Below, piece by piece: positions 7,803 through 20,952 of a stretch of 26,898 nt of DNA (the first letter of the stretch is position 1; every line of letters begins with the position of its first letter). The stretch spans positions 1 through 26,898 of IMG/VR virus record IMGVR_UViG_3300030406_000122; one strand, 5' to 3'. Below the pieces are notes generated by a model. It had not been told where the DNA came from. It worked only from the letters and a program-made list of their open reading frames with translations, and ran no database searches. The translations under genes were made by a program, and so were the position numbers. Source of the DNA: a virus.

Positions 7803-8032
7803 TAGACATCTCCTTCTACTTTTATCTTCAGGGTTCCTGAGTCTTGATACACATCTCCTACTTCTAGCGAAGATAAAGCATTTTGGTCAGGCAGTCCATT
7901 TATGCCCGTCAAAGGGTTGCGAACCTCGTTGATCAGAACCTCAAGCGTTCTGGCAAGCTGATTCATGTACGCTGGGTCATATTCCTCTGGAGCGACAGGC
8001 AGAATAGGACGGATAACTTTGGTGTTGCTCAT
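7802..8032 (-). CDS. conserved small virion-associated protein (76 aa)
   Basis: A 76-residue protein with an N-terminal VIRPILPVAPEEYDPAYMNQ motif, a helix (LARTLEVLINEVRNPLTGIN) and a short beta-like end containing GDVYQDSGTLKIKVEG. I recognise this as a short conserved gene that follows the gp10-like tail gene in marine short-tailed phages; its function is not known to me. ATG start, four-base ATGA overlap with the upstream hub gene. It could be a minor tail or plug component by position. Confidence 0.6.
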   Translation of the reverse strand: MSNTKVIRPILPVAPEEYDPAYMNQLARTLEVLINEVRNPLTGINGLPDQNALSSLEVGDVYQDSGTLKIKVEGDV

Positions 8033-9570
8033 CTGCGCCCATCCGCTCTTACATCAATTCTTGGAGCACCAAGCCGCCACTTCACATCCACCGCGTTGCT
8101 GGAAACCTTGAAGTTCAGGCTTCTGCCTCGTGCTCGGGTAAAGATCTGATTTGTGTATACGTCTGTGCTACTTTCGGTAACCACACCAGAAACCGTCTCT
8201 GTAATCGCCTTACCAGGGAAGTCACGGGACTGAATCGACAGGGTAGCCGCTGGGGTCGAGGTGTCAGAATCATTGAACGTGATGTCTGGTATCACGCGCC
8301 GCAGGAACATGAACTGTTCGCCATCGCCTATATCAAAGTCAGACGACTGCACAAAAGCGTTGATCGCAGAGCCGTCATCATTCAGCCCAAACTCATGATT
8401 GTACAGATAGCCACCCTCCACTGCCTGTGGGTAGCTACGCTGTCCTGCGCCTCGATCATTCCATGCGGTACGAGACAACTGTCCGTAATACCAGACCTTT
8501 TCGCCGTAGTTATAGACGACATATCGGTTTACTTCACCTGAAGCATTATTGGTCTGGGTAGGATAGAACCACCAGATCTCTGTCTCTGATGCCAAGGATC
8601 CAGCGTGGATCTTAAACGCCTGATTACGATTCAGGTCACTGAAGACATAGTCCCGCACCGAACAAGGCAACGCCTGAACACGACCATCATACACATAGAA
8701 GTTTTCCTGCCCCATCCAGAAGACAACGTCATTGACGCTGACTGCGGCATTGGGACTGGCAATTCTCACGTTATCAGCCAACAACGCAGTGCCGAAAGTG
8801 AACGGCGCACCCGTAAACTGAACAGAGTTCAGGCTTGTATCGGTCCAAACCAGAATCTCACGCCGTGTTCTGAGAGCGGTGATGATCTCGGAGCCTTGCG
8901 ACAGGCGGATGTCTCCCGCCGTGTTTGTCGCCGTAGGCGTCCAGTTGGCAGCGTCCTCTTGGTTAGAGAAGCGAATCAATAGCGGGTCTTGTTCGGTTGA
9001 GCCTAACGGATTAGCACCAAAAGCCAAGACATGCCTATCTACTTCAGAAACAAGAATCTTACGAGCAACGGTAGGTGTATTGCTGGCCCCTGACAAGTTC
9101 TCTAAAGGAATGGCTCGATTGTTCGTCAAACCTCCAGTGGCATCCCAGTAGTATACTCGCCCGTCCGCGACGTTGATGATCAGATCTTCACCAAAGTTGT
9201 CTGCGAACCACAGACGTAGGGTCTGACCCGCAAGATTACCTGCCGCACTGCCCCATGTAAAACGACCCCATGTGCCTGCGCCCCAACCAGAGCCAAGAAC
9301 CGTGGTATTCAAGCCGGTCTCAAGCAAATAAAACGCCGACGCCTGCCCCGCAGAAGAGTTCGTTTGATCTGCGGCGGAGGACAATGTGATGGTGTATGTG
9401 TTGGTCGCGGCGGATTGTACTTCAAATTCAGCCGCCAACGCTGAGTTCAATGCCGACGACAGACCAGACACATCCTCAAAGATCACGCGATCTCCTGTCA
9501 AGGCACCGTGCGCTGTATCGTTAACGGTTACAGTCGTGCTTCCGCTGGTTGTGGTGAATGTTATAGCCAT
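8029..9570 (-). CDS. tail hub, P22 gp10-like beta-propeller part (C-terminal half of a split gene, 513 aa)
   Basis: Residues 1-70 (ITFTTTSGSTTVTVNDTAHG...) form a beta domain that in intact relatives, as I remember them, lies inside a single ~650-700 residue protein. The rest is a beta-rich body resembling the DNA-stabilisation/hub protein gp10 of P22: a segment like REILVWTDTSLNSVQFTG, then NDVVFWMGQENFYVYDGRVQ, a VVYNYGEKVWYYGQLSRTAW strand pair, and YLYNHEFGLNDDG. It would join the connector to the tail fibres or needle and hold packaged DNA. The start is ATG at 9570, sharing its A with the stop of the N-terminal half (TGATG), with GGAG 7 bases upstream; a TTG one codon earlier is possible. 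It has no N-terminal hub motif of its own, so it must work with the upstream gene. Confidence 0.75.
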   Translation of the reverse strand: MAITFTTTSGSTTVTVNDTAHGALTGDRVIFEDVSGLSSALNSALAAEFEVQSAATNTYTITLSSAADQTNSSAGQASAFYLLETGLNTTVLGSGWGAGTWGRFTWGSAAGNLAGQTLRLWFADNFGEDLIINVADGRVYYWDATGGLTNNRAIPLENLSGASNTPTVARKILVSEVDRHVLAFGANPLGSTEQDPLLIRFSNQEDAANWTPTATNTAGDIRLSQGSEIITALRTRREILVWTDTSLNSVQFTGAPFTFGTALLADNVRIASPNAAVSVNDVVFWMGQENFYVYDGRVQALPCSVRDYVFSDLNRNQAFKIHAGSLASETEIWWFYPTQTNNASGEVNRYVVYNYGEKVWYYGQLSRTAWNDRGAGQRSYPQAVEGGYLYNHEFGLNDDGSAINAFVQSSDFDIGDGEQFMFLRRVIPDITFNDSDTSTPAATLSIQSRDFPGKAITETVSGVVTESSTDVYTNQIFTRARGRSLNFKVSSNAVDVKWRLGAPRIDVRADGRR

Positions 9571-10247
9571 CAACCTACTCCAACAGTGACGTAACCAGCG
9601 GCGCCGGTGGCTTCAAGACCTAGCGGGAAGAACCCTTCGTCAGCGGTTGGATCACCGCCGCTAGGCAGCGTCTTAACAGTGACAGTGCCAAGATCGCTTG
9701 TGATCTGTTCTGTAACTTCAGATATGATCAACCTGTGTTCCGCAGGCTCCAGATCACCCACCTGACCAGTGGCTTCCTCACCTGTCACAAGCACATGATG
9801 TGTGGTTTCAACAATGATGGATCCGACCAGACCGGCTACACCCGTAGCTTCCTCACCCGTTACGGCGACATTCTGAGTCGCTACGGCACCGGTGAAGATT
9901 ACAACGCTACCAACGCCCCCTGTTGCGGCGGAACCAGTGACAGCTTGAGGCAGAAGCACCGTGCGCCGAAACGGCGTGATGTCTCTGAATGTGCCAGATT
10001 CTTCTATGTATGCCTTGATGTGGGTGCCTACGAACAGTAGGTTCTGAGATGAGAGCGTTACAAAATCATGCAGCTCTCGAGCTGTGCCAAGAAACGTGGT
10101 GCTGTTTACTTTCTCCCAACCACCAATTCTTTCAACATATCCATAACGAAAGCGGATGAAGTTCCCATCAAACCATCCGCCCTCATTAGAATAGTTGGTG
10201 CCCTCGCGATTGATACCAGGGCGAAACTGGAGTTTGGTAAGAGGCAT
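9570..10247 (-). CDS. tail hub, N-terminal half carrying a repeat insertion (225 aa)
   Basis: Residues 1-95 begin MPLTKLQFRPGINREGTNYS and continue EGGWFDGNFIRFRYGYVERI-GGWEK, ending near RDITPFRRT. That is the N-terminus of the large gp10-like tail protein common in marine short-tailed phages, where it runs on directly into the beta domain that here starts the next gene. Instead residues about 102-225 are copies of a short repeat (VTGSAATGGVGSVV, VTGEEATGVAGLVG, VTGEEATGQVGDL, LGLEATGAAGYVTVGVG), after which the frame stops. The downstream half restarts in another frame at a TGATG junction. I read this as a hub gene split by repeat gain, with both halves still expressed; it could also be a recent disabling break. 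Confidence 0.75.
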   Translation of the reverse strand: MPLTKLQFRPGINREGTNYSNEGGWFDGNFIRFRYGYVERIGGWEKVNSTTFLGTARELHDFVTLSSQNLLFVGTHIKAYIEESGTFRDITPFRRTVLLPQAVTGSAATGGVGSVVIFTGAVATQNVAVTGEEATGVAGLVGSIIVETTHHVLVTGEEATGQVGDLEPAEHRLIISEVTEQITSDLGTVTVKTLPSGGDPTADEGFFPLGLEATGAAGYVTVGVG

Positions 10248-10250
10248 TCA

Positions 10251-10433
10251 TTACTCCGCTTCATCAATCGTCAGCGTACCGGACTTGACCTGTCGTTGAA
10301 TTTCGGCGTAGTGGCGGTTGTCCGGATCGAGGGGTACGAACACTTCAACGCTGTCAATAGTGGCGTTAATCCCCGCATTATTTCCGTCTTGTGCTAAATA
10401 TTGCGCCGCAGTGATGTTCATACTGTTATCCAT
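10251..10433 (-). CDS. small conserved tail-associated protein (60 aa)
   Basis: A 60-residue protein: MNITAAQYLAQDGNNAGINA, then a VEVFVPLDPDNRHYAEIQRQ segment and an acidic end. I recognise the VPLDPDNRHYAEI type from small genes next to tail fibres in marine phages, where they look like fibre-assembly factors; this is not proven. The ATG at 10433 has GGAG 8 bases upstream; a GTG at 10439 overlaps the preceding stop (GTGA) but lies only 2 bases from GGAG, so ATG is preferred. It follows the largest fibre of the array by a few bases, a usual place for a fibre-specific chaperone. Confidence 0.6.
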   Translation of the reverse strand: MDNSMNITAAQYLAQDGNNAGINATIDSVEVFVPLDPDNRHYAEIQRQVKSGTLTIDEAE

Positions 10434-10435
10434 CT

Positions 10436-11497
10436 TCACAACTCCGCATTAAAAGTAAACTTGCCGCTACTATTTGAATACATAGACCACGGGCCTGTGG
10501 CGGAGTTTTTTTGCATTTGCCACTGGTAAGCAATGGTTGATGTGCCGATTATTGAGGGTGCGTTGCAGTTGCTCAAGATAAAGCTGCCAACCTTTGTCCC
10601 TATTGGGGCGGCTCTCATAGCCACTGGGTGCTGCAATGTGTTCGCAGAAAAATTATTCGCTGATTGGTAGCCCTTCTGGCCCCAATCGTTCGTTGCTGTG
10701 CCGCCGCTTTCATAATAATACCTCTGACACCTAGCCAACTCATCGCCAAACGGCCGATGCTCAAACGCGGTGGCTTGGTCGCCTATCTCAAGCTGGACGC
10801 CGGTGATTTGCCAAGTTGCATTTGCGGTGGTGATAACACCATCTTGTGCATGACTCCCAGCCCAATTTGTGACGGTGTAGTTTGCCCAAGAGGTAGAATT
10901 TACGCTGTCAAAATCTGAACCTGCGGCTAAAGTCCAAGTAACTCTAAGTCCTTCGCCGTTATCGTTGTCTATTCCTCCACCACTAGTATCTCCAGCAAAA
11001 GTGACTGTTTTATATTCCCATGTATTTGCGGAAGATATCGTATAACTGGCGTTAATAATTCTAGCCGTATTGTCCGGTTTGTAAAGATTTACCCCAAACG
11101 TGCCTGTTTGAGACGATTTTACATAGAAACTAAGAGTTACACGTTTAGCACCTGACAAACCGTTTTGAAGATGCTGTAAGTTCTGCGCTTCAATTTTTTG
11201 TGCAAACCAAAACGCATCATTTGCATCAATCGCTGATTCTGCGGTTGTTGTGGTCAGCTTAAATGAGCTAGTAAACCCAGCAGGAGCATCAGAGACCTGT
11301 TCTGCCGTGTAAATATGTTGGTCACGACCAGCCGTCTGGACTGGAAATCTATCTACTGTTTTAAAGCCACCGCTGGTATTTCCTGTGCTTGACGTACCAT
11401 ACTGCGCCACCTGCATCGCACCATTGATAATCAGGTTCCTGTTCGACAACGCCGTCTGCGAACCAATCAGTGCGGCGAGTTCTGCTGCCTTACTCAT
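10436..11497 (-). CDS. tail fibre / receptor-binding protein with carbohydrate-binding-like domain (353 aa)
   Basis: The N-terminus contains SNRNLIINGAMQVAQYGTSS, the opening of a widespread phage fibre domain, followed by a jelly-roll-like region (about 90-245) with AKRVTLSFYVKSSQTGTFGV and WQITGVQLEIGDQATAFEHR. The C-terminal part begins ELARCQRYYYESGG, also typical of these fibres, and is a small beta domain that probably makes the tip. The 'QLEIGDQATAFEHR' ending of the jelly roll is shared with carbohydrate-binding modules, so it may bind host glycans. It is the largest of the fibre genes in the array. Start overlaps the previous stop (ATGA) with GGAG 7 bases upstream, encoded by the previous gene's last codons. 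Confidence 0.78.
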   Translation of the reverse strand: MSKAAELAALIGSQTALSNRNLIINGAMQVAQYGTSSTGNTSGGFKTVDRFPVQTAGRDQHIYTAEQVSDAPAGFTSSFKLTTTTAESAIDANDAFWFAQKIEAQNLQHLQNGLSGAKRVTLSFYVKSSQTGTFGVNLYKPDNTARIINASYTISSANTWEYKTVTFAGDTSGGGIDNDNGEGLRVTWTLAAGSDFDSVNSTSWANYTVTNWAGSHAQDGVITTANATWQITGVQLEIGDQATAFEHRPFGDELARCQRYYYESGGTATNDWGQKGYQSANNFSANTLQHPVAMRAAPIGTKVGSFILSNCNAPSIIGTSTIAYQWQMQKNSATGPWSMYSNSSGKFTFNAEL

Positions 11498-11916
11498 GCG
11501 AGATCTCCGTGTACTGCAATTCTAACGAAAGATACGTCACCATCAGCAGTTCCATCGCTATTATCTCCTGTTGATAATCCGTAGCGTTGCCTAAACGAAG
11601 AAGCAGTTTGAGAATTAGTACTGTTGCCAGATAGCATTGTACCCCTCGTCGTGCCGCCCGAATAAGAACCATCTGTTATTGAATAATTAGCATTGCCCAT
11701 ATTGTTTGTGAAAGAAGCACCATAATCTCCAGTACCCTCGTCCGTAGTAGCGGTCATGTTAAAGCTGTCACGAATTTCTGTATCTGAAGAATCAAATGTG
11801 GCCGCGCCGTTTAAGTTTAGCCAAGCCTTCGCACTACCCTGTGCAACAGTAGACAAGGCCACGCTGTTGTTCCCGCTGGCATCCTTCAGGGTGTTTACTC
11901 TGAGTTCACTGGCCAT
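11494..11916 (-). CDS. short tail fibre paralogue, 'GDLA' type (140 aa)
   Basis: A 140-residue member of the fibre family that starts with a MASELRVNTLKD motif (compare LRADTI, LNVDTI and LKADTL in sister genes), then AKAWLNLNG and a DSFN-x-(T/S) segment, and ends VRIAVHGDLA. The body is Gly/Ser/Thr/Asn-rich and beta-like. The start is ATG at 11916, inside a TAATG overlap with the C1q-like gene; longer frames to 11931 lack a better site. The last codons GGA-GAT-CTC-GCA double as the Shine-Dalgarno and spacer for the next gene, whose ATG overlaps the stop. Probably trimeric fibre or fibre-tip subunit; exact role unknown. Confidence 0.7.
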   Translation of the reverse strand: MASELRVNTLKDASGNNSVALSTVAQGSAKAWLNLNGAATFDSSDTEIRDSFNMTATTDEGTGDYGASFTNNMGNANYSITDGSYSGGTTRGTMLSGNSTNSQTASSFRQRYGLSTGDNSDGTADGDVSFVRIAVHGDLA

Positions 11917-12467
11917 TAGCCCAACCTCCACCCCTGCATTGCGCTACGCAAGAAACCATTGAATTCTTGCATATTATTATCAGAACCTGTGTTGTGAAAA
12001 ACCTCTGTCTTTACTATGTCTCCATCACTCAGGCTTGCGACCAAACTCAAATACATACCAGCGTTAGCTGTATTAGCAGGCGACTCACCTTCTGAAATAC
12101 GCGCAATGAAATTGGCATTAGAGCCAACACCCGTGTTTTTACTAATCGCCAAAAAGTTTTGAGTTCCCATATCTGCCATTTCAACCCAAGCACTTAACAT
12201 CCAGTAACCGCCACAACCTGTGGGGACGGTGTAGTAATAGTTGCTATTACTCCAGCCACTATGCGTGTCAAAAGTTCTTGTGTTACTACTGTCCAATAAA
12301 AAATGAGCTTTTGTCCATGTACCAGTGGAAATGGCTTGGTTGCCGTCATTAAGAGATACACTAAAACCAACAGGAGCAGCCTGCACGACTACTCCAGTGG
12401 AATTAATTGTCAAACCACCTGTGCCGTTAGTATGTTGAATATTTTCAACTTTGAGTACGCTTGCCAT
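11916..12467 (-). CDS. tail fibre tip with C1q/TNF-like jelly roll (183 aa)
   Basis: The first 30 residues (MASVLKVENIQHTNGTGGLT) are the attachment-type start shared by the array's fibres. Residues about 33-180 read like a C1q-like jelly roll: GFSVSLNDGNQAISTGTWTK, then a FDTHSGW-x-(5)-YYYTVPTGCGGYWML core, and later KTEVFHNTGSD. C1q-like heads form trimers and serve as receptor-binding tips in many phages, so this is a good candidate for a host-recognition protein. Both ends overlap neighbours as TAATG. The gene follows a GDLA-type fibre, whose end supplies GGAG ten bases before this start. Confidence 0.75.
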   Translation of the reverse strand: MASVLKVENIQHTNGTGGLTINSTGVVVQAAPVGFSVSLNDGNQAISTGTWTKAHFLLDSSNTRTFDTHSGWSNSNYYYTVPTGCGGYWMLSAWVEMADMGTQNFLAISKNTGVGSNANFIARISEGESPANTANAGMYLSLVASLSDGDIVKTEVFHNTGSDNNMQEFNGFLRSAMQGWRLG

Positions 12468-12868
12468 TATGCGAGGTCTCCGAATAAAAGGACGCTGTTT
12501 CTTTCGCTATCCCTAAAATCACCTGCGTAATACCAAGTGGCAAAAGGTGCAGCAGATGTGCTAAAGTCATTTTGTGCACTATATTTGCTTAACCAAGTAG
12601 CGTCGTTTACGTTTCCGTGTTCTCCTGCGAAACCCGATACGCCGTATAAAGAATCACTCATGGAACTTGTAATTGAAACCGTAAACAGTCCCTTGCTGTC
12701 ATCGTTTACGCTAGAAACATTCAAGCTGCCAACTTCAAGAGTTCCGACACCCGCAGGCGCAGCTTGATTGAACCTGCAACGTAACTTAGCAGCCTCTTGT
12801 TTTGTCAGAGTAACTGTACCTGTACCCGACTTATCTACAATGGTATCTACGTTAAGTTGGCTGGTCAT
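12467..12868 (-). CDS. short tail fibre paralogue, 'GDLA' type (133 aa)
   Basis: Starts MTSQLNVDTIVDKSGTGTVT and continues LTKQEAAKLRCRFNQ, closely parallel to the paralogue at 16262-16666 (LRADTIQ...AATLTKQHAAKAWVRYD). The middle has the family's SLNVSSVNDDSKGLFTV and MSDSLYGVSG pieces and the end is VLLFGDLA. The ATG at 12868 overlaps the previous stop (ATGA) and has GGAG upstream; the frame stays open 12 bases further but that start has no better site. Predicted to be a beta-rich, probably trimeric virion fibre subunit. Function is inferred from family resemblance and position in the array. Confidence 0.7.
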   Translation of the reverse strand: MTSQLNVDTIVDKSGTGTVTLTKQEAAKLRCRFNQAAPAGVGTLEVGSLNVSSVNDDSKGLFTVSITSSMSDSLYGVSGFAGEHGNVNDATWLSKYSAQNDFSTSAAPFATWYYAGDFRDSERNSVLLFGDLA

Positions 12869-13323
12869 ACGATGCTCCAATATCCGTTAACAGTGACGGT
12901 GGCACTCTGCGTAATCGGCCCTGCCGACACACCGTTCTCGTCGCTGTCAATCGTGATGTCTGCGCTGATCGTCTGACCGTTCAGGCGAATGATTGAGTTG
13001 TTACCCTTAAAAGGATATCGAGTATCTGATTCTCCCTTGGTATAGCTGTTCGCAATGGAGAATGTGTCGTATGCAACGATCTCAACTACGTCATTGAGTG
13101 ACGCCCCTGTGACCAGGACAACCGTTGTGCCCGTTGTCGCCGTGTAATCCGTCCCTGGCTTTAGAAGAACACCGTTCTGGTAAACATCCACATACCGCCC
13201 GTCTTGATAAGACAGCACCAACGAATCGGAATCGGATCCGCTGAAGCTCGTCTGCCCAGCCGTGGCTTGATACACGAAGCGGTTGCGAACACCGAACTCT
13301 GGAGATTTACCTATGTATGGCAT
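12865..13323 (-). CDS. tail fibre segment, 'MPY-G' type, copy 2 (152 aa)
   Basis: Starts MPYIGKSPEFGVRNRFVYQA, then a beta domain with VDVYQNGVLLKPGTDYTATT, a shape common in phage fibre shafts (F/Y-x-DG/NG followed by LxPGxDYT), and a C-terminal half with RLNGQTISADITIDSDENGV and GPITQSATVTVNGYW. The same order of parts appears in the gene at 16663-17118 (MPYTGNRPATHF..., VSVDGVVQDSNAYTLT, GPFTVASGVTLTVES), so the two are diverged copies. TAATG overlap with the tail assembly chaperone gene before it. Likely a fibre shaft or adaptor subunit. Confidence 0.7.
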   Translation of the reverse strand: MPYIGKSPEFGVRNRFVYQATAGQTSFSGSDSDSLVLSYQDGRYVDVYQNGVLLKPGTDYTATTGTTVVLVTGASLNDVVEIVAYDTFSIANSYTKGESDTRYPFKGNNSIIRLNGQTISADITIDSDENGVSAGPITQSATVTVNGYWSIV

Positions 13324-13595
13324 TATGGTTTCTCCGGCCAGGTCACATCATCAAGAGACGTAGCATTTTTTGTAATGTCACGCAGAGCTTGACGATAGGT
13401 TGTTTGTGCAGATGTCATGGTAAGATCAGAAGACGCCCACCAATCTGTTTCAGAAAGTCGATTATCACGTTCTTTGCGTAGCGCAGAAAGATTACGTTCA
13501 GCCGCACCATCTGCCCATGCCTGTTCTTCTGCTTGACGTTCTGCAATCTCAGCAGCAGTCATGTCAACTAGCTGGTCGTTTACATACTTTTTCAT
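13323..13595 (-). CDS. tail (fibre) assembly chaperone, copy 2 (90 aa)
   Basis: A 90-residue protein: charged helix at 12-45 (TAAEIAERQAEEQAWADGAA), then LRKERDNRLSETDWWASSDL, and an end YRQALRDITKNATSLDDVTW-PEKP. The 'LRxxRNxxLxxTDW ... YRQALRDI ... WPxKP' pattern is that of the small phage tail assembly chaperone family (Phage_tail_APC in Pfam, from memory). Such proteins help fold or trimerise fibres and are often beside them. It is a paralogue of 15394-15717, and the 3' ends of the two genes remain similar as DNA. ATGA overlap with the fibre gene upstream and TAATG with the one downstream. Confidence 0.8.
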   Translation of the reverse strand: MKKYVNDQLVDMTAAEIAERQAEEQAWADGAAERNLSALRKERDNRLSETDWWASSDLTMTSAQTTYRQALRDITKNATSLDDVTWPEKP

Positions 13596-14146
13596 TTTGT
13601 CACCCCATAAAGAGTGAATGCACCTGCCTCAATGTTTCCGCTGCTACACTTGAAATGTAAGCCTGTGATTGCCTCAAAAGAGCCGGACTTAAAGCCGCCC
13701 ATTACAACCGTACCCTGATGGTTTCCACTGGTGTTAATAAATGTTGTCTGTCCGTACAGAGAACAGGGATGTGTGGTGGAATTGGCAGGGCCAATCGTCA
13801 AAGCGCCACACATGCTTTCATTTGAAGCAGACCCAACAGAAGAGCCTATCTCCATAGTGTTCGCTGAATTACTGTTCACTAGAGAACCGCCACCTTCGTT
13901 GACCAGTCCATGTCCGTACACAGAGCCAGCTAATGCACTGCCGCTAGAATCAAGGAATCGTACAAAAACATTCACGTTGTCTGTGGCGGGGGTCAAAGTG
14001 AAATGGCACTGATAAAAATCGTATGTTGAACTCATACCAGTCAAGTCAACAGACGCAACAGCAGAGGAAACGGTGGTTGAGGAAATTTTTACAAGTCCCT
14101 TGGCATCGGCACTAATTCCACCCGCTTGAACTTTTGTCAGTGCCAT
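13592..14146 (-). CDS. tail fibre protein, beta-rich (184 aa)
   Basis: Starts MALTKVQAGGISADAKGLVK, then a jelly-roll-like body: SVDLTGMSSTYDFYQCHFTL, NVNVFVRFLDSSGSAL and a Gly-rich closing section GFKSGSFEAITGLHFKCSSG-NIEAG. This is a frequent fibre-tip arrangement in marine phages, in which the N-terminal 20 residues attach and the rest forms a trimeric head. It is directly followed (ATGA overlap) by an assembly chaperone gene, which supports a fibre role. Receptor unknown. Ten bases separate it from the upstream gene. Confidence 0.7.
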   Translation of the reverse strand: MALTKVQAGGISADAKGLVKISSTTVSSAVASVDLTGMSSTYDFYQCHFTLTPATDNVNVFVRFLDSSGSALAGSVYGHGLVNEGGGSLVNSNSANTMEIGSSVGSASNESMCGALTIGPANSTTHPCSLYGQTTFINTSGNHQGTVVMGGFKSGSFEAITGLHFKCSSGNIEAGAFTLYGVTK

Positions 14147-14156
14147 CTCTTACTCC

Positions 14157-14528
14157 TTATGCGTAAGGGCTATCACCCAGCACAGACGTATCCCAAGCTG
14201 CCTTGAGTTTGGCAATCGTATCTGCGTTAGTGATCGCAGATGCCGCCGGTGCGTCACGCAGGGCAGTTTTAGCGTTAACAGCCGCAGTCTTGGCAGACGC
14301 ATCATCAGCCTCTAGCGCCTTCATGTAGGCCACATCTTGTGCCTCTAAGAGAGGCTTGCGAACTTCACGGATCTTATCTTTAAAGATCTCCTTGGCCTTT
14401 GTCAGATCCTCGCTGATGACGCTGCCACTCAGAGACCATGCACCGCGAAAGTGACGGTCAGAAGGAACGGTAACCGTGGAAGCGTCAACCTGATTCCCGT
14501 CCTTGTCTACGATATATGTTGTCGGCAT
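14157..14528 (-). CDS. tail fibre assembly-type protein (123 aa)
   Basis: N-terminal 20 residues are beta-like (MPTTYIVDKDGNQVDASTVT), then SDRHFRGAWSLSGSVISEDL and a long charged helix (TKAKEIFKDKIREVRKPLLE), with ALRDAPAASAITNADTIAKL near the end. The layout of a short beta tip followed by helices resembles phage fibre assembly proteins (DUF4376-like type), and I recognise the HFRGAW...RxVRxPLLxxxDxxYMxAxE pattern from marine phage tail regions. It is distinct from the two APC-type chaperones in the array. Eleven bases from the upstream gene, ten from the fibre gene downstream, which may be its client. Confidence 0.65.
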   Translation of the reverse strand: MPTTYIVDKDGNQVDASTVTVPSDRHFRGAWSLSGSVISEDLTKAKEIFKDKIREVRKPLLEAQDVAYMKALEADDASAKTAAVNAKTALRDAPAASAITNADTIAKLKAAWDTSVLGDSPYA

Positions 14529-14539
14529 TTTCTGCTCCT

Positions 14540-15001
14540 CTAAGCTGCCAGTTCATCAGAGATACGCCAAGCGTTTCTCCACTCGCGTGTCTTCGGAAGC
14601 TGTTCCTTCCGGCAGATCACCATCTTCGGGCGGTTGCCCTCGTCCCACGACTGCCATACAGACTGTGGCACGTCCTTCTGGATAAGGTACTCGATAGCCT
14701 CTTCTTCGGTCATTGGCCCCATCGGTTCCGTATCATGCAGCAAGTAGCCGCGTGTGTGTTTCTTGAAGTCGGGCTGTGCCTCGTCCTTCGCTAGTTCCCA
14801 GTATACCCAAACCGGCGGCAATATCCCACCCTGCAACGCACAAGCCATCCAGTTGGGATCCGGTATCATTACCTTGACACACTCATCTACGTTGTCCTCA
14901 TAGACAACCCGATACTCAGACTGCACACCATCAAGGTTCTCTTTGGCCCAGCAGAGTCGGTCCCATAGATGTGTGCCTTTGAACTCTGGGGTCACTGTCA
15001 T
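14540..15001 (-). CDS. conserved phage protein of unknown function in fibre array (153 aa)
   Basis: A soluble, mixed alpha/beta protein of 153 residues, unlike the Gly/Ser-rich fibres around it: Trp- and acid-rich, with FKGTHLWDRLCWAKENLDGV, MIPDPNWMACALQGGILPPV, VYWELAKDEAQPDFKKHTRG and RPKMVICRKEQLPKTREWRN. I recognise the family as recurrent among fibre genes of marine phages but know no function. It has no signal, membrane segment or obvious catalytic motif. The start ATG overlaps the stop of a GELA-ending short fibre (ATGA) and uses GGAG coded by that fibre's last codons. It may assist fibre assembly or cap a fibre. Confidence 0.6.
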   Translation of the reverse strand: MTVTPEFKGTHLWDRLCWAKENLDGVQSEYRVVYEDNVDECVKVMIPDPNWMACALQGGILPPVWVYWELAKDEAQPDFKKHTRGYLLHDTEPMGPMTEEEAIEYLIQKDVPQSVWQSWDEGNRPKMVICRKEQLPKTREWRNAWRISDELAA

Positions 15002-15384
15002 GCGAGTTCTCCTACTATTTGTGCTGTCATGTAAACATTGTCATAAGATGATCTTTGCCCTTGAGTACCAGAGACGGAGAAAGTACGAACAGTAAGCACC
15101 GAAGTAGTCGGTAAATTGGTCTGCACTGCCATGTGATAAAATCTAATCATGCCGACCGCCGAATAATACGCATTGCTCATGGTATTATTAATATTTACCT
15201 GAAAAACGCCCTGATCTACATCTGTCAGAGACGACGTATTAAAGCTGTCCTCTAAAGTTGCTGGGTCATTTGAAGAGTCCCATGTTGCCCAAACCTTTGT
15301 ACTACCATTCACAACATAATTCGTATCCACCGAACCCGCAGTCGAGTGCGTCAGGGTATCTGCTTTGAGTGTTCCGAATGCCAT
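14998..15384 (-). CDS. short tail fibre paralogue, 'GELA' type (128 aa)
   Basis: Starts MAFGTLKADTLTHSTAGSVD, then STKVWATWDSSNDPATLEDS, FNTSSLTDVDQGVFQVNINN and MSNAYYSAVGMIRF, ending MTAQIVGELA. Each part matches the same position in the paralogues at 16262, 12467 and 11494 (LxxDT(I/L), KxW, D-S-x-N-x-S-S, M-x-x-x-x-Y, GDLA). It is shorter than a typical stand-alone fibre, so it probably works as one layer or subunit of a compound fibre. The last codons GGA-GAA-CTC-GCA form the ribosome-binding site of the next gene. Nine bases lie between it and the chaperone gene upstream. Confidence 0.7.
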   Translation of the reverse strand: MAFGTLKADTLTHSTAGSVDTNYVVNGSTKVWATWDSSNDPATLEDSFNTSSLTDVDQGVFQVNINNTMSNAYYSAVGMIRFYHMAVQTNLPTTSVLTVRTFSVSGTQGQRSSYDNVYMTAQIVGELA

Positions 15385-15393
15385 GTCTTATCC

Positions 15394-15717
15394 TTATGGT
15401 TTCGTCGGCCATGTTACGTCATCAAGAGACGTAGCACTGTCTGTGATATCACGCAGGGCTTGGCGGTAGGTTGACATTTCCGATGTCATTGTTTGGTCAG
15501 ACAAACCATAGTGGTCTGTATCAAGAAGACGTTGATTTCTTTCTGCACGAAGCATGTCTAGCTTTAGTGCATTCAGTAATTCTGTTTCCTTAGTGCCTAC
15601 TGCTGTTGCATCCCAATCTACAACAGCCCCGTTTGCATCTTTTGCAACGGCATTTGCCCCATCCCCCGATATAGTGACAACATTGTCATACAGCGCATAG
15701 ATTGCTTCATGCTGCAT
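15394..15717 (-). CDS. tail (fibre) assembly chaperone, copy 1 (107 aa)
   Basis: The first 40 residues are beta-like (AIYALYDNVVTISGDGANAV), followed by a helix with LKLDMLRAERNQRLLDTDHY and the family end YRQALRDITDSATSLDDVTW-PTKP. This is the same small tail assembly chaperone family as 13323-13595; the last ~27 residues of the two are almost the same while the N-terminal parts differ, as expected if the N-terminus is specific to the client fibre. It sits two bases after the fibre at 15720-16265, its probable client. Assignment to the family is firm by motif; the client is inferred. Confidence 0.8.
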   Translation of the reverse strand: MQHEAIYALYDNVVTISGDGANAVAKDANGAVVDWDATAVGTKETELLNALKLDMLRAERNQRLLDTDHYGLSDQTMTSEMSTYRQALRDITDSATSLDDVTWPTKP

Positions 15718-15719
15718 GG

Positions 15720-16265
15720 TTACCCTCCAATCTCCATCACCATTATTTGTGAGGCAGTCCGACCAGAATAGTCTTGGTCTTGGTCTGTCTTTCCTCGATT
15801 AATATAAAAAGTGCCGTCGTATGTGTGTCCTAAAGTTCCCTGCAACTTATAGGTTTGTTCTGACGTTGATGATGGGGAATCCAAAACAAACCCATTTACG
15901 TTTCCGATATCATAAGCATACGGAATACTGGCCGGTCGAAATATAGCATTGTTTCTTAGTTGCTCTGTGTTACCTTGGTCCGCAATTCCAATTGCCGTAG
16001 CCCCTCTTAAAAGTCGGATATGTATCGTTGCGGAGGTACTTTGAGATACGTTGATTGACCAAAATACAAGTATGTTACTGCTTGTAGATAAAGGTGTTAT
16101 TGCCACTGACATGCCGGGGATATCGACGTAAGTGTCAGTGCTGGAGGATGTAAAACTACCGACATCAGTTTTTATTGTGCGTTTAACTTGAAGAACATGG
16201 TTTGGAATATACACCCCACCATTAGTCGTCTTCTCGTTGATGGTATCTACAAGGATGGTGCTCAT
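15720..16265 (-). CDS. tail fibre protein with jelly-roll-like tip (181 aa)
   Basis: Starts MSTILVDTINEKTTNGGVYI-PNHVLQV, the attachment-like opening of the array, then a beta body: DTYVDIPGMSVAITPLSTSS, NILVFWSINVSQSTSATIHI, and a YKLQGTLGHTYDGTFYINRG segment ending in MVMEIGG. The order resembles fibre tips in which a 20-25 residue N-terminus is followed by a C1q-like or similar jelly roll. Start chosen at 16265 because it overlaps the previous stop (ATGA) and has GGAG 7 bases upstream; a TTG 18 bases earlier has no such site. Followed closely by an assembly chaperone. Probable receptor-binding subunit. Confidence 0.7.
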   Translation of the reverse strand: MSTILVDTINEKTTNGGVYIPNHVLQVKRTIKTDVGSFTSSSTDTYVDIPGMSVAITPLSTSSNILVFWSINVSQSTSATIHIRLLRGATAIGIADQGNTEQLRNNAIFRPASIPYAYDIGNVNGFVLDSPSSTSEQTYKLQGTLGHTYDGTFYINRGKTDQDQDYSGRTASQIMVMEIGG

Positions 16266-16666
16266 GCGAGGTCTCCAAAGCAAGCTACATTACAATCGTC
16301 ATGGTCTACGAGAGCCGCAGTCGCTAAATCAACACCTCTCATATTAGCTTGCGTTGTAGTTCTATACGGCGATGTTCCACTACCTTGCCAACCTGAAGAG
16401 TCCAAAGTTAGAGTGCCTCCAGAAGTCCCAGAAGCTGTGCCTGTACACTGAACAGACCAGTTCGTGTTAGCCATTGCACTAGACAATGTAATACCTTGCT
16501 TTCCGGCACCTGAACCATCTCTAACTGATGATATATTCAAGCTGTCGTTTATGCTGTCGGTGTTTGTAGCGTCATATCTTACCCACGCTTTCGCAGCATG
16601 TTGCTTTGTCAGCGTAGCTGCACCGCCGCCGGTACTTTGAATAGTATCTGCCCTCAACGTACTCAT
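16262..16666 (-). CDS. short tail fibre paralogue, 'GDLA' type (134 aa)
   Basis: Starts MSTLRADTIQSTGGGAATLT, then KQHAAKAWVRYDATNTDSIN, DSLNISSVRDGSGAGKQGIT and MANTNWSVQC, ending CNVACFGDLA. It is the clearest member of the short fibre family in this array and closest to 12467-12868 by shared KQ(H/E)AAK and FGDLA pieces. The protein is Gly/Ser/Thr-rich and beta-like throughout. ATGA overlaps at both ends couple it to the MPY-type gene before and the jelly-roll fibre after it. Its final codons carry the GGAG for that fibre. Structural role inferred. Confidence 0.7.
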   Translation of the reverse strand: MSTLRADTIQSTGGGAATLTKQHAAKAWVRYDATNTDSINDSLNISSVRDGSGAGKQGITLSSAMANTNWSVQCTGTASGTSGGTLTLDSSGWQGSGTSPYRTTTQANMRGVDLATAALVDHDDCNVACFGDLA

Positions 16667-17118
16667 AGCGTCACCAATGTCCCGCCGCTTTCAACAGTCA
16701 GGGTCACGCCACTGGCTACAGTGAACGGGCCTGTCACGTTTGCGTTCTCGGTTGCAAGGATGGTTATGTCGGTAGTTAGACTCTGTGCGTTGGTGCGGAA
16801 CAAACCGCCGCCCTTAAAGTTGCCCTTGTTGGCCGCTGGCGGCGTCACAGAACCTCGAGTCAGCCCTAAGAAGTTAATGAAGATATTGTTCGTTCCAGAG
16901 GAAGGTGCGTTTCCTGAACCAAACTCAATCGTAGTGGAGTTTGTTAGTGTGTAGGCGTTAGAATCCTGAACAACGCCATCCACAGAAACCAGGATGTCCT
17001 GAACGTCCGAGACCGCGTTGTCCAACGTGAACGAAGTCGTGGAACCGTTGCCGCTCTCCCGCTGAACTACGGGGATGTTTTCAAAATGTGTGGCCGGCCT
17101 ATTTCCAGTGTATGGCAC
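16663..17118 (-). CDS. tail fibre segment, 'MPY-G' type, copy 1 (151 aa)
   Basis: Starts MPYTGNRPATHFENIPVVQR, then SGNGSTTSFTLDNAVSDVQD and ILVSVDGVVQDSNAYTLTNS, the F-x-L-x-x-x-V ... V-D-G-V-x-Q ... Y-T pattern often seen in phage fibre shafts, and a C-terminal part with FRTNAQSLTTDITILATENA and GPFTVASGVTLTVESGG. The C-terminal third looks like a repetitive beta structure. Paralogue of 12865-13323. Eleven bases follow the upstream gene; the end overlaps the next fibre gene as ATGA. Likely fibre shaft or adaptor. Confidence 0.7.
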   Translation of the reverse strand: MPYTGNRPATHFENIPVVQRESGNGSTTSFTLDNAVSDVQDILVSVDGVVQDSNAYTLTNSTTIEFGSGNAPSSGTNNIFINFLGLTRGSVTPPAANKGNFKGGGLFRTNAQSLTTDITILATENANVTGPFTVASGVTLTVESGGTLVTL

Positions 17119-17129
17119 AATGCGCTCCT

Positions 17130-17456
17130 TTAGCTACTGATCGCATCCACTGCGGAAACCCATACATCCACAGAACTCGCAGCACTTGACTGAACCTTCA
17201 AAGCATCTCCTGATTGCAGGACAATTTTAGCACCACCATCCAAAACCTGTAGAGCTGACGCCGCCGGTATCGGAGCATCTTTAATTAAGAAATGGTCGTT
17301 TGAACTTACCGTTAAAAACACACTCACCGTAATTTGAGAAGTAGTGGTGTTAGCTAAGTTAATGCCAACCAATGTGTCGTTTGAGTCTGACGTATGTATC
17401 GCAACTGCTGATGTGCCTACGTTTCTTGCAATGTAGCGTTTAAAGTCCTGTGCCAT
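17130..17456 (-). CDS. small structural protein (108 aa)
   Basis: A 108-residue, beta-rich protein: MAQDFKRYIARNVGTSAVAI, LVGINLANTTTSQITVSVFL, HFLIKDAPIPAASALQVLDG and GAKIVLQSGDALKVQSSAAS. The order of strands reads like a small jelly-roll or capping domain, and I recognise this gene as a regular neighbour of fibre genes in marine phages. No catalytic motif. It is about ten bases from both neighbours. Probably a small tail or fibre-collar component; function is not established. Confidence 0.62.
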   Translation of the reverse strand: MAQDFKRYIARNVGTSAVAIHTSDSNDTLVGINLANTTTSQITVSVFLTVSSNDHFLIKDAPIPAASALQVLDGGAKIVLQSGDALKVQSSAASSVDVWVSAVDAISS

Positions 17457-17465
17457 TACCTTCTC

Positions 17466-18152
17466 CTAAAGGGCTATCGCCATTGCGATAGCAAATCCCG
17501 CTGTCGCTCCTGATGCTCCGCTTGACGCTGATGTCACCCTCCCATCAGCCGCTACAGTTATACTCGCGTTTGTATAGCTACCAGCCGAGACCCCTGAATT
17601 TGCGATATCCGTTGTGACTGACACATTTCCTAAGTTTGTCATTGGAGTAGCACTGGCGGTCACATCTCCAGTTAGCGTAATCGTTGGACTCTTTTCTACG
17701 GTGACGCCGCTCTCAATGGTGCCGCTAGACAGCGTCAAACTAGAAAAAGCGTCTACCGCCGCTCCAGAGCCATCCGTGTAGATGACCTTTGTTTCACCAT
17801 TAGGAATCGACGGGTTGGTGCCGGAACTGACGATTTCAATCGTCTGGCTACCAGAGGTAGCGTTCTCGATGAACCAAAGTTTGGAAACTGTGCTTGGCGC
17901 AAGCGTAACCGTCCGCGTGGCTGTCAGGCTTACTCCAGAGGTGATCTTCAAGTACATGGCACGGACACCGTCCGCCGCGCCGTCCGCCATTGTGATCGTG
18001 CTATTAGCATCGCTGGCTATTGCTTCTGTGCCATAGCCAAAGGCATCAGCAATAAGTTCAAGATTTGTGTTGGTCGTCTGGCCCCAGGTGCCTGACTGTT
18101 CGCCGTCAGCTATCTCTTCAAGACGAAGATTGTTTACATATGAACTCGCCAT
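17466..18152 (-). CDS. tail fibre protein (228 aa)
   Basis: Starts MASSYVNNLRLEEIADGEQS-GTWGQTTNTNLELIADAFGY, the well-known opening of fibre proteins in marine phages (LRLxEixxGxxSGTWGxxTNtNLelIaxA). It is followed by a beta domain with ADGVRAMYLKITSGVSL, VSKLWFIENATSGSQTIEIV and SIPNGETKVIYTDGSGAAVD, and ends in a repetitive beta region and a Gly/Ala-rich hydrophobic tail (ATAGFAIAMAIAL). In longer relatives this N-terminus attaches to the virion and the rest forms the shaft. Here the protein is short and probably ends before a receptor-binding tip, which other genes in the array may supply. Confidence 0.75.
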   Translation of the reverse strand: MASSYVNNLRLEEIADGEQSGTWGQTTNTNLELIADAFGYGTEAIASDANSTITMADGAADGVRAMYLKITSGVSLTATRTVTLAPSTVSKLWFIENATSGSQTIEIVSSGTNPSIPNGETKVIYTDGSGAAVDAFSSLTLSSGTIESGVTVEKSPTITLTGDVTASATPMTNLGNVSVTTDIANSGVSAGSYTNASITVAADGRVTSASSGASGATAGFAIAMAIAL

Positions 18153-18159
18153 TCATGCC

Positions 18160-20952
18160 TCACGCTGCTATGTCTTCCCAGTTATCGCTAACCCCTGTAG
18201 TGATAGTGCTCCAAGACGGAGACTGACTTGGCGACACAGCACTCCAAGATGGTGACTGACTCGGAACAATCTGACTCCATACCAAGACAGACCCAACTTG
18301 GCCTGTTCCGACTATACCAGTAGCCGGCACATTTGCCAATCCCGTGACAGTTGCCGAACCCAGTCCACTTTGAAGGGCATCTGAAGTGACCTGAACGTCT
18401 GCCGACGCAAGTGCAACAGCGGTTCCCTGCGATGCCGTCAGGCCAATGCCTGTAACATCTATGTTGTTGTTGGTAACTAGAGAAACTTCTCCAACAGATC
18501 CTGTGGCCTCTATTCCTGTGGCAGGAACATTGGCCTCGCCAACAACGGTTACAGAGTTGAGCCTTCCTGTGGCCTCTTCTCCCGTGAGAACCACAGTAAT
18601 ACCAATAACAACTGTGGTGCTTCCTACTTGGCCCGTGGCGTCTTCGCCAGCAACGGAAACAATGGCTTGAGCATCTACTGTTACAGAATCAACCTCGCCG
18701 GTTCCTTCTGCGCCGGTGACATCTATATTGTTGTTGCTTACAGGGACAACAGAACCAACTTCACCTGTGGCTTCCAAACCAGTCTCAGGAACATTAGCAT
18801 CCGCTGTAACGGTTTCATCACCGACTTCGCCTGCGGCTTCTGAACCAGAAACCGCTACATCCGCCGCCGCTACAACAGTTTCATCACCAACGGCGGAGGT
18901 GGCTTCCTCACCGGTGACATCTATATTGTTATTACTTACAGGGACAACCGAACCAACGCTGCCGGTTGCCTCCTTTCCGGTCTGCACCAGAATCTGTTGA
19001 GTAGTGACGGTTTCATCACCAACGGCGGAGGTGGCTTCTGATCCACTAACAGCGACCACAGCGGCGGCGTCTACGGTGACAGAGCCAACGCCAGAGCTGG
19101 CCTCCAATCCGGTCTCAGGAACAACCGCACCAGCGTCTATAGTGACAGAGCCGACCCCACCCGTTCCTTCTACACCGGTTTGAACTAGAACTTGTTGAGT
19201 GGTGACGATTTCATCACCAACTTCGCCTGTGGCCTCTACACCGGTTTGAACTAGAGTTTGCTGAGTGCTGACAGTTTCGTCACCAACTTCGCCCGTGGCC
19301 TCTATGCCAGTTTGAACTAGAGTTTGCTGAGTAGTGACAGTTTCGTCACCAACCTCGCCAGTTCCCTCCACACCGGTGACGGCGACGTTGAAGATCACTC
19401 TTGCGGTAACCGAGCCAACTGCACCGGTCCCTTCGGATCCGGTAACAGACAGGTTCTGTGCGGTGCTTAGAGTAACAGTGCCTACAGCGGAGGTAGCTTC
19501 AGATCCAGTAACAGAAACAACCGCAGCGGCAGAAGTCTGACCGCCAAAGTTACGAAGACCAAGAAGGTTGTTTTCATTGTCCGCGTTATCGTCTTCTACG
19601 ATAGCGCCGACTGGCACCTCTGAAACAAACCGCATACCCGCCGTTAGAGCGTAACTCTTCGCGTTTGGTTTGAGAGTATTGTCGGTTGTAGTGCTGGAGA
19701 TAAGCTGGAACTTAGTCGGGAAGTCTGATCCCGTGTTGCTTGTCGCAAGCTGTATCGTGTCTACAAGTGTGCCGCTGCTGTTATAGACCTCGATGTTGCG
19801 GCCATTTGTACCCGGCGCACCCATGAAGCATACAAATTCTGCTGCTTCAATAAGGCGAAACTCGTGAGCAAAACAGCCCTCCGGTATAAAGCTGGTTTTT
19901 TCACCACCGTCACTGTCCGCGATACTGAATGCCGCAGAGGCTTTGGCCGTTTGGTATCTATTACTTGGCCCAGTAAAGTCTGTACCCGCAGCAAAATTAG
20001 TGTTGATTGTGCTTATCGTGGAACTGTTACTGGTTCCGTCACTAGCAAATCTTGTAAAGGTTTGTGCCGTTCCACCGTACCCATCAACCAAAACCGCTGT
20101 TGCACTGCCTGACGCAAAGCCGTAAAGGAAATCAGTGGTTGCAGGGAAGAGTGACCTACTGTCGAAGGACAGATCATCGTTAGCGCTCTTGAACACCATA
20201 ATCGGAATATCAGAAAATATCGTATATTCAGGATCACTGGTATCGTCGCTGTAAGTTTGCGTTGTGGTTGCAGTGCTGCCAACACTCAAGGTTGTAGTCG
20301 ATACACCGTCCTTGAATATCTCTACAGATGCTGTGCCAAACAAGGCTCTCATCTGAAGTCTTACGCCAAAACGAGTATTTCGTATACCAAAGGATGTACC
20401 CGCCCAAGAGGTCGGAACACCTACCGTTTCGTTGTTGGCATTTTGCAGCGTAATCGGCTTGTTCGCCGATATTATCTTGTTTTCGTAGTCAGACGCGGAA
20501 ACCGCAAGTGTTCCACCTGCCGAACTTATCGTGCCAAGAGACACACCGTCAGCCGAAACTGTCGTGCTATCTTCATAAGCAATGACTGTAATATTTGGAT
20601 TATTATCGTCATCAGGTACGAAATATTCGGCGTTGAGGGCGCCGCCTAGCTCTGGGTTGCCTTGAGCCGCAAATCCAACAACGGAAACCCCTGCATTCGC
20701 GGCAACCGTTACGCTACCAACCGAACCAGTAGCCTCTAGACCAGTCTCAGAAACATTGGCAACGCCGGTTACAGTTACAGAACCTACGCCTGATGTGGCC
20801 TCCAAGCCAGTTTCTGGGATGTTAGCTTCTGCATCAACTGTTACGCTACCGTTGCTTGCGGTAGCCGAAACTCCAGACGCAACAACAGGTAAGGGGGAGT
20901 TCCACGCCCCTTCGGACCATGAACCCCGACCCCAACCTGTTATGTTAGCCAT
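18160..20952 (-). CDS. large repeat-containing virion protein (930 aa)
   Basis: The N-terminus ITGWGRGSWSEGAWNSPLPV and the C-terminus (VPSQSPSWSAVSPSQSPSWS, then NWEDIAA) are both known to me from structural proteins of marine phages. Between them lie three copies of a ~22-residue repeat (about 24-97), a globular beta domain (about 105-480, with NAEYFVPDDDNNPNITVIAY and FIPEGCFAHEFRLIEAAEFV), and nineteen more repeat copies (about 484-892). The unit has the form V-T-G-x-E-A-T-G-x-V-G-x-x-T-V. It is probably a virion appendage or tail protein whose repeats act as a variable-length stalk. ATG start with AGGAG 8 bases upstream. Length in relatives likely varies with repeat number. Confidence 0.72.
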   Translation of the reverse strand: MANITGWGRGSWSEGAWNSPLPVVASGVSATASNGSVTVDAEANIPETGLEATSGVGSVTVTGVANVSETGLEATGSVGSVTVAANAGVSVVGFAAQGNPELGGALNAEYFVPDDDNNPNITVIAYEDSTTVSADGVSLGTISSAGGTLAVSASDYENKIISANKPITLQNANNETVGVPTSWAGTSFGIRNTRFGVRLQMRALFGTASVEIFKDGVSTTTLSVGSTATTTQTYSDDTSDPEYTIFSDIPIMVFKSANDDLSFDSRSLFPATTDFLYGFASGSATAVLVDGYGGTAQTFTRFASDGTSNSSTISTINTNFAAGTDFTGPSNRYQTAKASAAFSIADSDGGEKTSFIPEGCFAHEFRLIEAAEFVCFMGAPGTNGRNIEVYNSSGTLVDTIQLATSNTGSDFPTKFQLISSTTTDNTLKPNAKSYALTAGMRFVSEVPVGAIVEDDNADNENNLLGLRNFGGQTSAAAVVSVTGSEATSAVGTVTLSTAQNLSVTGSEGTGAVGSVTARVIFNVAVTGVEGTGEVGDETVTTQQTLVQTGIEATGEVGDETVSTQQTLVQTGVEATGEVGDEIVTTQQVLVQTGVEGTGGVGSVTIDAGAVVPETGLEASSGVGSVTVDAAAVVAVSGSEATSAVGDETVTTQQILVQTGKEATGSVGSVVPVSNNNIDVTGEEATSAVGDETVVAAADVAVSGSEAAGEVGDETVTADANVPETGLEATGEVGSVVPVSNNNIDVTGAEGTGEVDSVTVDAQAIVSVAGEDATGQVGSTTVVIGITVVLTGEEATGRLNSVTVVGEANVPATGIEATGSVGEVSLVTNNNIDVTGIGLTASQGTAVALASADVQVTSDALQSGLGSATVTGLANVPATGIVGTGQVGSVLVWSQIVPSQSPSWSAVSPSQSPSWSTITTGVSDNWEDIAA
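18277..19515 (-). repeat. C-terminal coding repeats, nineteen ~22-residue units
   Basis: Nineteen consecutive degenerate units, most 21-23 codons long, each with a core like TG-x-E-(A/G)-T-(G/S)-x-V-G. Three units in a row remain close at DNA level with a strict 66-base period: the block starting TTTGAACTAGA on the plus strand recurs at 19179, 19245 and 19311. A second sub-family carrying Asn-Asn-Asn-Ile-Asp-Val-Thr-Gly recurs at about 18448, 18718 and 18919. The mix of near-identical and diverged copies points to repeated local duplication. Boundaries are approximate. Confidence 0.85.
20662..20883 (-). repeat. N-terminal coding repeats, three ~22-residue units
   Basis: Three units of the same repeat near the N-terminus of the 930-residue protein: ASGVSATASNGSVTVDAEAN, TGLEATSGVGSVTVTGVANV and TGLEATGSVGSVTVAANAGV, followed by a partial one (VGFAAQGNPELG). 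They are separated from the nineteen C-terminal units by a non-repetitive domain of about 380 residues, which looks as if it had been inserted into, or flanked by, one repeat array. Boundaries are approximate. Confidence 0.8.

Follow-up and report, generated by a model that had tools for sequence, protein, structure and literature searches.

The IMG/VR virus record IMGVR_UViG_3300030406_000122, a 26,898-base piece of a phage genome (this entire stretch is called the window below), contains at positions 10251-18152 an array of 17 contiguous genes (A-Q), all on the minus strand and covering ~99% of the region, which probably encodes a compound apparatus for receptor binding in a podovirus-like marine phage, its exchangeable tip bodies each joined to an N-terminal tag specific to the position. 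Comparison of protein sequences from related arrays shows that the tag stays with its place while the bodies move between places and phage backbones, and that tips of different families in the same slot carry the same tag. We further infer docking of the tips on a hub, their simultaneous presence on one virion and a role in host range.

The original prediction for this region, of 17 consecutive short genes mostly encoding 100-185 residues, was borne out: all 17 genes were found, 13 of them in this size range. Neighbouring genes are at most 14 nucleotides (nt) apart or overlap by 1-4 nt (with Q counted from the ATG at 10421). Two predicted MPY-G paralogues are indeed present, L beginning with MPYIG and C with a GTG start followed by PYTG (27% identity to each other over 145 amino acids (aa), E 6e-7), as are two APC-type chaperones, F and K, which score well above the PF16778 cut-off of 26.6 bits. 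The predicted six or more fibre-type openings can be counted under a loose reading: the LxxDT type occurs in D, G and M, and looser variants in E (LVDT), N (LKVENI) and O (LRVNTL), with LRLEE in A. The four tail-fibre proteins that match phrog_11355 (D, G, M and O) are called the GDLA family here, after a shared protein ending. The genes, all on the minus strand, are listed below with their counterparts (gp) in Puniceispirillum phage HMO-2011.

A, 17466..18152, minus: 228-aa fibre-like protein just before the array; phrog_31104, E 2.1e-17; C-terminal part resembles HMO-2011 fibre gp43 (29% over 185 aa)
B, 17130..17456, minus: first conserved array protein; phrog_1276; 68% to gp42
C, 16663..17118, minus: first MPY-G adaptor; phrog_18673 tail fibre, E 1.6e-27; 69% to gp41
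D, 16262..16666, minus: GDLA-family fibre, place p1, tag MSTLRADTIQST; phrog_11355, E 1.8e-15; gp40, 53% over 83 aa
E, 15720..16265, minus: slot-2 tip, fibre C-terminal family, tag MSTILVDTINEKT; gp39, 28%
F, 15394..15717, minus: APC chaperone paired with E; PF16778, 47.3 bits
G, 14998..15384, minus: GDLA-family fibre, place p3; phrog_11355, E 5.1e-11; gp37, 39%
H, 14540..15001, minus: fixed, highly conserved, probably an assembly or hub protein; 82% to gp36
I, 14157..14528, minus: fixed protein directly after H, weakly chaperone-like; 75% to gp35
J, 13592..14146, minus: slot-4 tip by the slot-4 motif, tag MALTKVQAGGI
K, 13323..13595, minus: APC chaperone paired with J; PF16778, 51.5 bits
L, 12865..13323, minus: second MPY-G adaptor; 86% to gp33
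M, 12467..12868, minus: GDLA-family fibre, place p5, tag MTSQLNVDTIVDK; phrog_11355, E 2.2e-12; gp32, 41%
N, 11916..12467, minus: slot-6 tip, C1q family by family profile; gp31, 30%
O, 11494..11916, minus: GDLA-family fibre, place p7, tag MASELRVNTLKDASG; phrog_11355, E 1.3e-12; 41% to HMO-2011
P, 10436..11497, minus: slot-8 tip, fibre C-terminal family, tag MSKAAELAALIG; phrog_4492, E 1.6e-60; gp28, 46%
Q, 10251..10421, minus: small partner of P; ATG at 10421, GTG start at 10439; 53% to gp27

Places in the array and their N-terminal tags

Collapsing 395 loci from five viral scans, annotated records and the window yielded 289 groups; H lay on the plus strand in 140 of these and the series C..H..L was found in 77, from which one locus (L146) was dropped for lack of tips, leaving 76 arrays. 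Because the arrays were fetched with the window genes H (28 arrays), L (27), gp10 (7), P (7) and B (5), the window and HMO-2011 being added, H and L are present by selection, whereas the other tips are unselected. Some place labels are wrong by their own rule, as in L339, where a "p7" tip bears the slot-8 tag. The common order in the 76 deduplicated arrays is C, three tips, H, I, usually one tip, L, usually three tips, and a last tip. I directly follows H in all 76 arrays; three tips lie between C and H in 72 and four in the other 4, whereas between I and L there is one tip in 65 arrays, none in 6 and two in 5. A GDLA fibre is present after C in 72/76, before H in 69/76 and after L in 61/65 cases. 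The most varied place is slot 4, which holds a GDLA fibre in 19 of the 76 arrays, E in 11, E with APC in 10, P with Q in 6, N in 5, J with APC in 4 and other contents in 15, and is empty in 6. Tips outside the GDLA family often travel with a small partner or chaperone gene of their own: Q follows P in 28/33 cases and APC follows J in 5/5, E in 14/37 and N in 3/20, compared with no APC or Q after any of 401 GDLA fibres.

The place of a GDLA fibre can be read from its N terminus. In a nearest-neighbour test that left out the same array and pairs more than 90% identical, the first 31 alignment columns recovered the correct place for 363 of 392 fibres, compared with 75/393 for the core (columns 33-77) and 84/388 for the hypervariable part (columns 78-128); the shuffles averaged 15-16%, with maxima of 19-21%. 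The loss of the place signal in the core is not simply due to saturation because core identity is equal within (0.34-0.43) and between (0.36) places. In a stricter version, based on the first 14 residues, the nearest neighbour had to come from a different protein family, and 211 of the 219 tips in slots 2, 4, 6 and 8, the four that take several families, found their own slot (mean 57.5 and maximum 76 in 2000 shuffles). When compared with all places over the same 14 residues, 78/88 non-GDLA tips found theirs.

Two of the tags can be expressed as motifs, both written after the data were seen: a MALTKV-like start is shared by 62 of the 70 slot-4 tips, which belong to six classes, vs 3/437 elsewhere, and a MSKAAELA-like start by 32/40 slot-8 tips vs 1/467 elsewhere. 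A triad code, in which the endings KQ.A, LQQG and NGSA would denote the first, middle and third place of both halves, was retained as a lead only: it separates the places, but 19-61% of the members miss the strict patterns.

Exchange of tip bodies and the gene junction

Comparison with the closest relative of the window, contig 3300035135_000026 (94.6% DNA identity at 16589-19179 and 95.6-95.8% from 10273 down), shows tip-gene starts kept while the bodies are replaced. The only parts of the array that can be aligned are the fixed genes B, C, H, I and L and the starts of six tip genes, 30-168 nt in length: 78 nt in D, 91 nt in G, 30 nt in J, 83 nt in M, ~165 nt in O and ~113 nt in P. Across the arrays, one body, 84-85% identical over 119-127 aa, was found behind three tags (p1 in L099, p3 in L097 and slot 4 in L102), and an E body that occupies slot 4 in L155 is 83% identical to one in slot 8 in L180. 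Bodies are also common to HMO-type and window-type backbones (83% for L068/L195 and 81% for L139/L158), and altogether 48 cross-slot pairs of bodies are at least 65% identical over 70 residues. The body trees carry no slot signal (13 changes vs a shuffle mean of 12.3 for E, 6 vs 5.6 for P and 8 vs 8.9 for N) and, for E, no backbone signal either (10 vs 8.6); the backbone changes in the P tree number 6 vs 7.8, and N had too few labels. The tree of H is partly clustered by backbone (8 changes vs 14.4), with at least three moves forced by strongly supported branches, so that the fixed part moves seldom.

The original prediction offered two readings of the array, a branched multi-protein appendage or several alternative tips carried together. 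In the second case, alternative fibres would compete for, or be expressed for, the same attachment site, with one or a few per virion and a broad or switchable host range. The strong difference in tip content between close relatives fits this possibility, as does the variation in the number of tips, including the four-tip form in the locus L003 described below. However, competitors for one site should share one N-terminal tag whereas every place has its own; the three tips between C and H are found in 72/76 arrays; the genes, packed in one direction with start-stop overlaps, suggest joint expression; and there are no inversion signals in the array. We therefore consider alternative fibres unlikely, and the branched appendage fits better, given the separate tag at each place and the near-constant number of tips between C and H.

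Two routes to variation within a strain were considered and dropped. Inverted repeats in the array do not exceed 22 nt (76-89% complementary), so nothing points to inversion switching. As for hypervariation among strains, L318 (99.1% identity to the window) does not differ in any of the array genes that it covers, its 98 differences all lying outside the genes compared (a reverse transcriptase was not searched for). Separately, a 108-nt stretch is 79% identical between the chaperone genes F and K (13323-13430 vs 15394-15501), which points to a duplication or to gene conversion inside the array.

The DNA that encodes the GDLA ending is a translation junction: the motif GGAGAYCTMGCATRA places a ribosome-binding site before the next gene, the start of which, in the window, overlaps or closely follows the preceding stop. 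Codon choice in this ending is skewed compared with gene bodies (n=353), with GGA for 97.2% of Gly (23.8% in bodies), GCA for 88.7% of Ala (40.1%) and GAC for 85% of Asp (32.9%). A role of the junction as a recombination site is plausible, and bodies would probably be exchanged by recombination between the conserved 5' tag segment and this shared GGAGAYCTMGCATRA junction, which holds the ribosome-binding site of the next gene.

These features could also mean that the slot-specific 5' ends are DNA barcodes for in-register recombination and for setting translation starts, with no docking role for the tag peptide. In keeping with that, the points of exchange coincide with the ends of the tag segment, the DNA of the shared gene junction is under constraint, and between backbones four-fold sites agree more often in the tag (45-59%) than in the core (33-37%). 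Nevertheless, conservation in the tag is higher for residues (58-69% identical between backbones) than for silent sites, in contrast to the junction, with its 70-87% agreement at four-fold sites, so that the tag is conserved largely as protein, with some excess at the DNA level. Furthermore, unrelated tip families share tag residues across backbones, and a barcode alone requires no such likeness of proteins. A pure DNA barcode is thus improbable, and we prefer tags that act as peptides.

The array in HMO-2011 and other genomes

HMO-2011 (NC_021864), which infects Candidatus Puniceispirillum marinum (SAR116), carries gp42-gp27 in the same order as the array. Collinear counterparts exist there for 14 of the 17 array genes, namely B-I and L-Q, and their annotation goes no further than tail fibre, C1q or hypothetical protein. 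This collinearity, together with the many relatives of H in IMG/VR, indicates that the array is not a chance assembly. Proteins of the fixed class are 68% (B), 69% (C), 75% (I), 82% (H) and 86% (L) identical to their counterparts, and tips 28-53% (E 28%, N 30%, G 39%, M and O 41%). By sequence comparison, the core genes of the two phages are unrelated or nearly so. Among the genes compared outside the array, the window protein t712 weakly matches gp45 (23% over 107 aa); low-identity matches to the HMO-2011 fibre gp43 or to gp25 were seen for the repeat-rich protein, t969 and part of a 1070-aa protein. The nearest capsid relatives of the window phage include Pelagibacter phage HTVC023P (70%) and phage DSL-LC04 (67%), in which relatives of its gp10-like tail protein are 34-38% identical. 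With collinear genes amid core genes that are otherwise unrelated or nearly so, the array is a module residing on two podophage backbones.

A 153-aa H query yielded at least 600 matches in IMG/VR, and 597 of the 600 listed were confirmed as relatives; in the phage collection, the only relatives beyond HMO-2011 were those in Mel-JY33, Nsp-JY18 and SI2 (45-48%). In five loci of four bacterial genomes, two of which, Curvivirga and Cohaesibacteraceae, are Alphaproteobacteria, H is preceded by three GDLA-family fibres, and I is present in 3 of the 5. The Cohaesibacteraceae contig (L405:762-6545) contains two sets of GDLA fibres, of three and four genes, with the H relative behind the first set.

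The module is not universal on either backbone. H is present in 8 of the 22 window-type loci in which 8 kb or more precede gp10. L003, the gp10 of which is 98% identical to that of the window, encodes B, C, three tips with p1, slot-2 and p3 tags, and a slot-8 tip with Q: a natural four-tip short array (L003:6090-9323) without H, I and L between its tips. The HMO-2011-type Roseobacter phage CRP-1 has a single 1080-aa fibre where the array would sit. Given the short form, the 8 of 22 loci with H and the single fibre of CRP-1, the array is one of several solutions on each backbone. No description of the array was found by title or start of abstract in the literature on fibre arrays, branched complexes, docking, SAR116 phages and 9EFK, which does not prove absence; the word "fiber" does not occur in an article on HMO-2011-type phages (PMC9038755).

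Two side observations concern other tail genes. The gp10-like tail protein (8029-10247) consists of two genes, split after a repeat-bearing stretch; the split is common to L003, L009 and L093, and a single long gene is found in DSL-LC04, CRP-901, L012 and L048. A repeat of the VTGxEATGxVGxVTV type fills a 930-aa protein and, according to sequence matches, recurs in the N-terminal gp10 fragment, and a third protein ends in it, as judged by eye (sites 18160-20952, 9570-10247 and 22357-22656), as if it had spread among tail genes.

Tip folds, the proposed apparatus and known systems

Structural and profile comparisons point to fibre-tip types for several tips. The model of the GDLA fibre O (mean predicted local distance difference test score (pLDDT) 83.7) has its best alignments with the C-terminal domains of tailspikes and fibres from phages, namely the tailspikes of phiAB6 (Z 8.7, root-mean-square deviation (rmsd) 2.9, 92 residues aligned) and Pam1 (Z 7.9, rmsd 1.8, 69 aligned) and AP22 gp53 (Z 6.4), and 9 of the 10 best chains are phage or pyocin fibres or spikes; the GDLA profile gave no match among PDB sequences (best E 0.41). 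The original prediction had named structures without fibre folds as evidence against it, and this single fibre model, a partial check, resembles such C-terminal domains. Of its two C1q/jelly-roll candidates, N stood, by a profile of 27 family members that matches C1q proteins (cerebellin-1, E 1.8e-32), whereas the window N alone had no Pfam match at E up to 1; the second did not hold up as C1q, the E family matching the C-terminus of orf22 in PDB 9efk (E 1.4e-29) and J matching phrog_14820 only. P corresponds to positions 775-1076 of 1096 in phrog_4492, the C-terminal part of a long-fibre family, and has relatives in Synechococcus, Prochlorococcus and other phages; alone, it had no PDB match. 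The profile of the adaptors has a match in a capsule depolymerase (residues 106-171, E 1.4e-7). C stays below the cut-off for the T7 tail fibre N-terminal domain PF03906 (18.5 vs 25.2 bits), and I, weakly APC-like, below that of PF16778 (11.6 vs 26.6 bits). NCBIfam searches with ten array proteins gave no matches, and no gp10-like XD or TD domains were found among the Pfam or PHROGs matches of the array proteins, the presence of XD/TD models in those libraries being unchecked.

The H model is confident (pLDDT 87.6). H was considered as a known enzyme or chaperone and set aside, with no PDB sequence match, a best Foldseek E of 1.1 and a best VIA Z of 2.1; the window H has no PHROG match. Of its relatives, 8 out of 31 gave a hit to an HNH PHROG (best E 0.00044), which we judged to be chance.

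One might suppose that much of the array is outside the virion, many of its small proteins serving in assembly or as accessories and the fibre being made only of one or two tips with the adaptors. This would suit F and K, and perhaps I and Q too, which resemble chaperones or partners, and H, which has no known fold match. Against this, 8 of the 17 genes can be classed as fibre tips, seven of them (D, E, G, M, N, O and P) from their profile or fold and J from its tag, and the places of these eight tips are kept across lineages, which makes a largely non-virion array very improbable.

The compound apparatus that we favour would be organized around the two adaptors, C and L, with three tagged tips each, one extra tip in slot 4, after I, and another in slot 8, the last place. 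Each tip, made as a separate small protein, in some cases with its own chaperone, would consist of a place-specific N-terminal tag of ~12-31 aa and a receptor-binding body, the tag being a docking peptide that seats the tip on its own site of an adaptor-based hub. Under this proposal, the tag belongs to the site rather than to the tip, so that bodies would be freely exchangeable and one tip could be changed while those beside it stay in place. The original prediction included neither the slot tags nor the exchange between backbones nor the translation junction behind the GDLA ending.

Several observations weigh against this proposal. Over all eight places, the cross-family test succeeded in only 266/480 cases, p3, p5 and p7 being held almost only by the GDLA family, so that these places offer no correct neighbour from another family. 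In slot 2, the tips of other families fall partly under the slot-2 code and partly under that of p1, with the HMO-2011 tip among the misses; just 13/20 GDLA tips in slot 4 fit the slot-4 motif; and the hypervariable part retains a place signal of 21.6%, slightly above the shuffle maximum of 19.8%. Some excess DNA similarity remains in the tag codons, so that recombination contributes, and L003 indicates that H, I and L are not indispensable. The best Z of the GDLA model (8.7) is only just above the level reached by models without clear relatives, and Foldseek alone gave no significant match for it (best E 0.78). The apparatus as a whole is deduced from sequences and models of single proteins.

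A more far-reaching proposal, which we hold to be about evenly balanced, is a plug-in platform with eight addresses. Short N-terminal docking peptides, each fitting a single site on a hub of two adaptors, would allow tips of unrelated folds (tailspike-like sandwich, C1q, fibre C-termini and others) to occupy a given place, while unrelated lineages of ocean podophages would draw on one pool of tips and reshuffle their host recognition combinatorially. If the tags do serve for docking, a widespread group of marine phages would recognize hosts through separately encoded, interchangeable tips instead of one long fibre. The acquisition of the same recognition parts by unrelated phages would then be explained, and the sequence code would allow the place of each tip to be read from a metagenome.

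Among known systems, gp42-gp27 of HMO-2011 comes closest, with the same gene order and families, differing in core genes that are unrelated or nearly so, in gp34, a GDLA fibre in slot 4 that replaces J and K, and in an extra gene, gp30, after the C1q tip. CRP-1 shares HMO-2011-type backbone genes (coat and relatives of gp45, gp44 and gp43) and differs by its one long fibre at the place of the array. Metaviromic islands of marine phages are hypervariable among related phages in their genes for tail fibres, C1q and carbohydrate binding, and the fibres have a conserved N-terminus and a variable C-terminus (PMC3909814); the available part of that article describes no position code or multi-slot layout. 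A host-recognition module of Alteromonas phages A5, V22 and others is likewise common to unrelated backbones, but consists of one fibre and one chaperone, with no row of position-tagged tips (PMC10579305). In principle, the array, known here from its genes, resembles the branched tailspike complex of Ackermannviridae, in which conserved N-terminal modules link several receptor-binding proteins with variable C-termini and recombination occurs at conserved 5' ends (PMC11414711), the same combination of a conserved N-terminal part, a variable C-terminal part and exchange. In that complex, four tailspikes are joined by entire XD and TD domains, whereas the array would bring together up to eight tips, mostly of 100-185 aa, through tags of ~12-31 aa and two adaptors, with unrelated folds in one slot.

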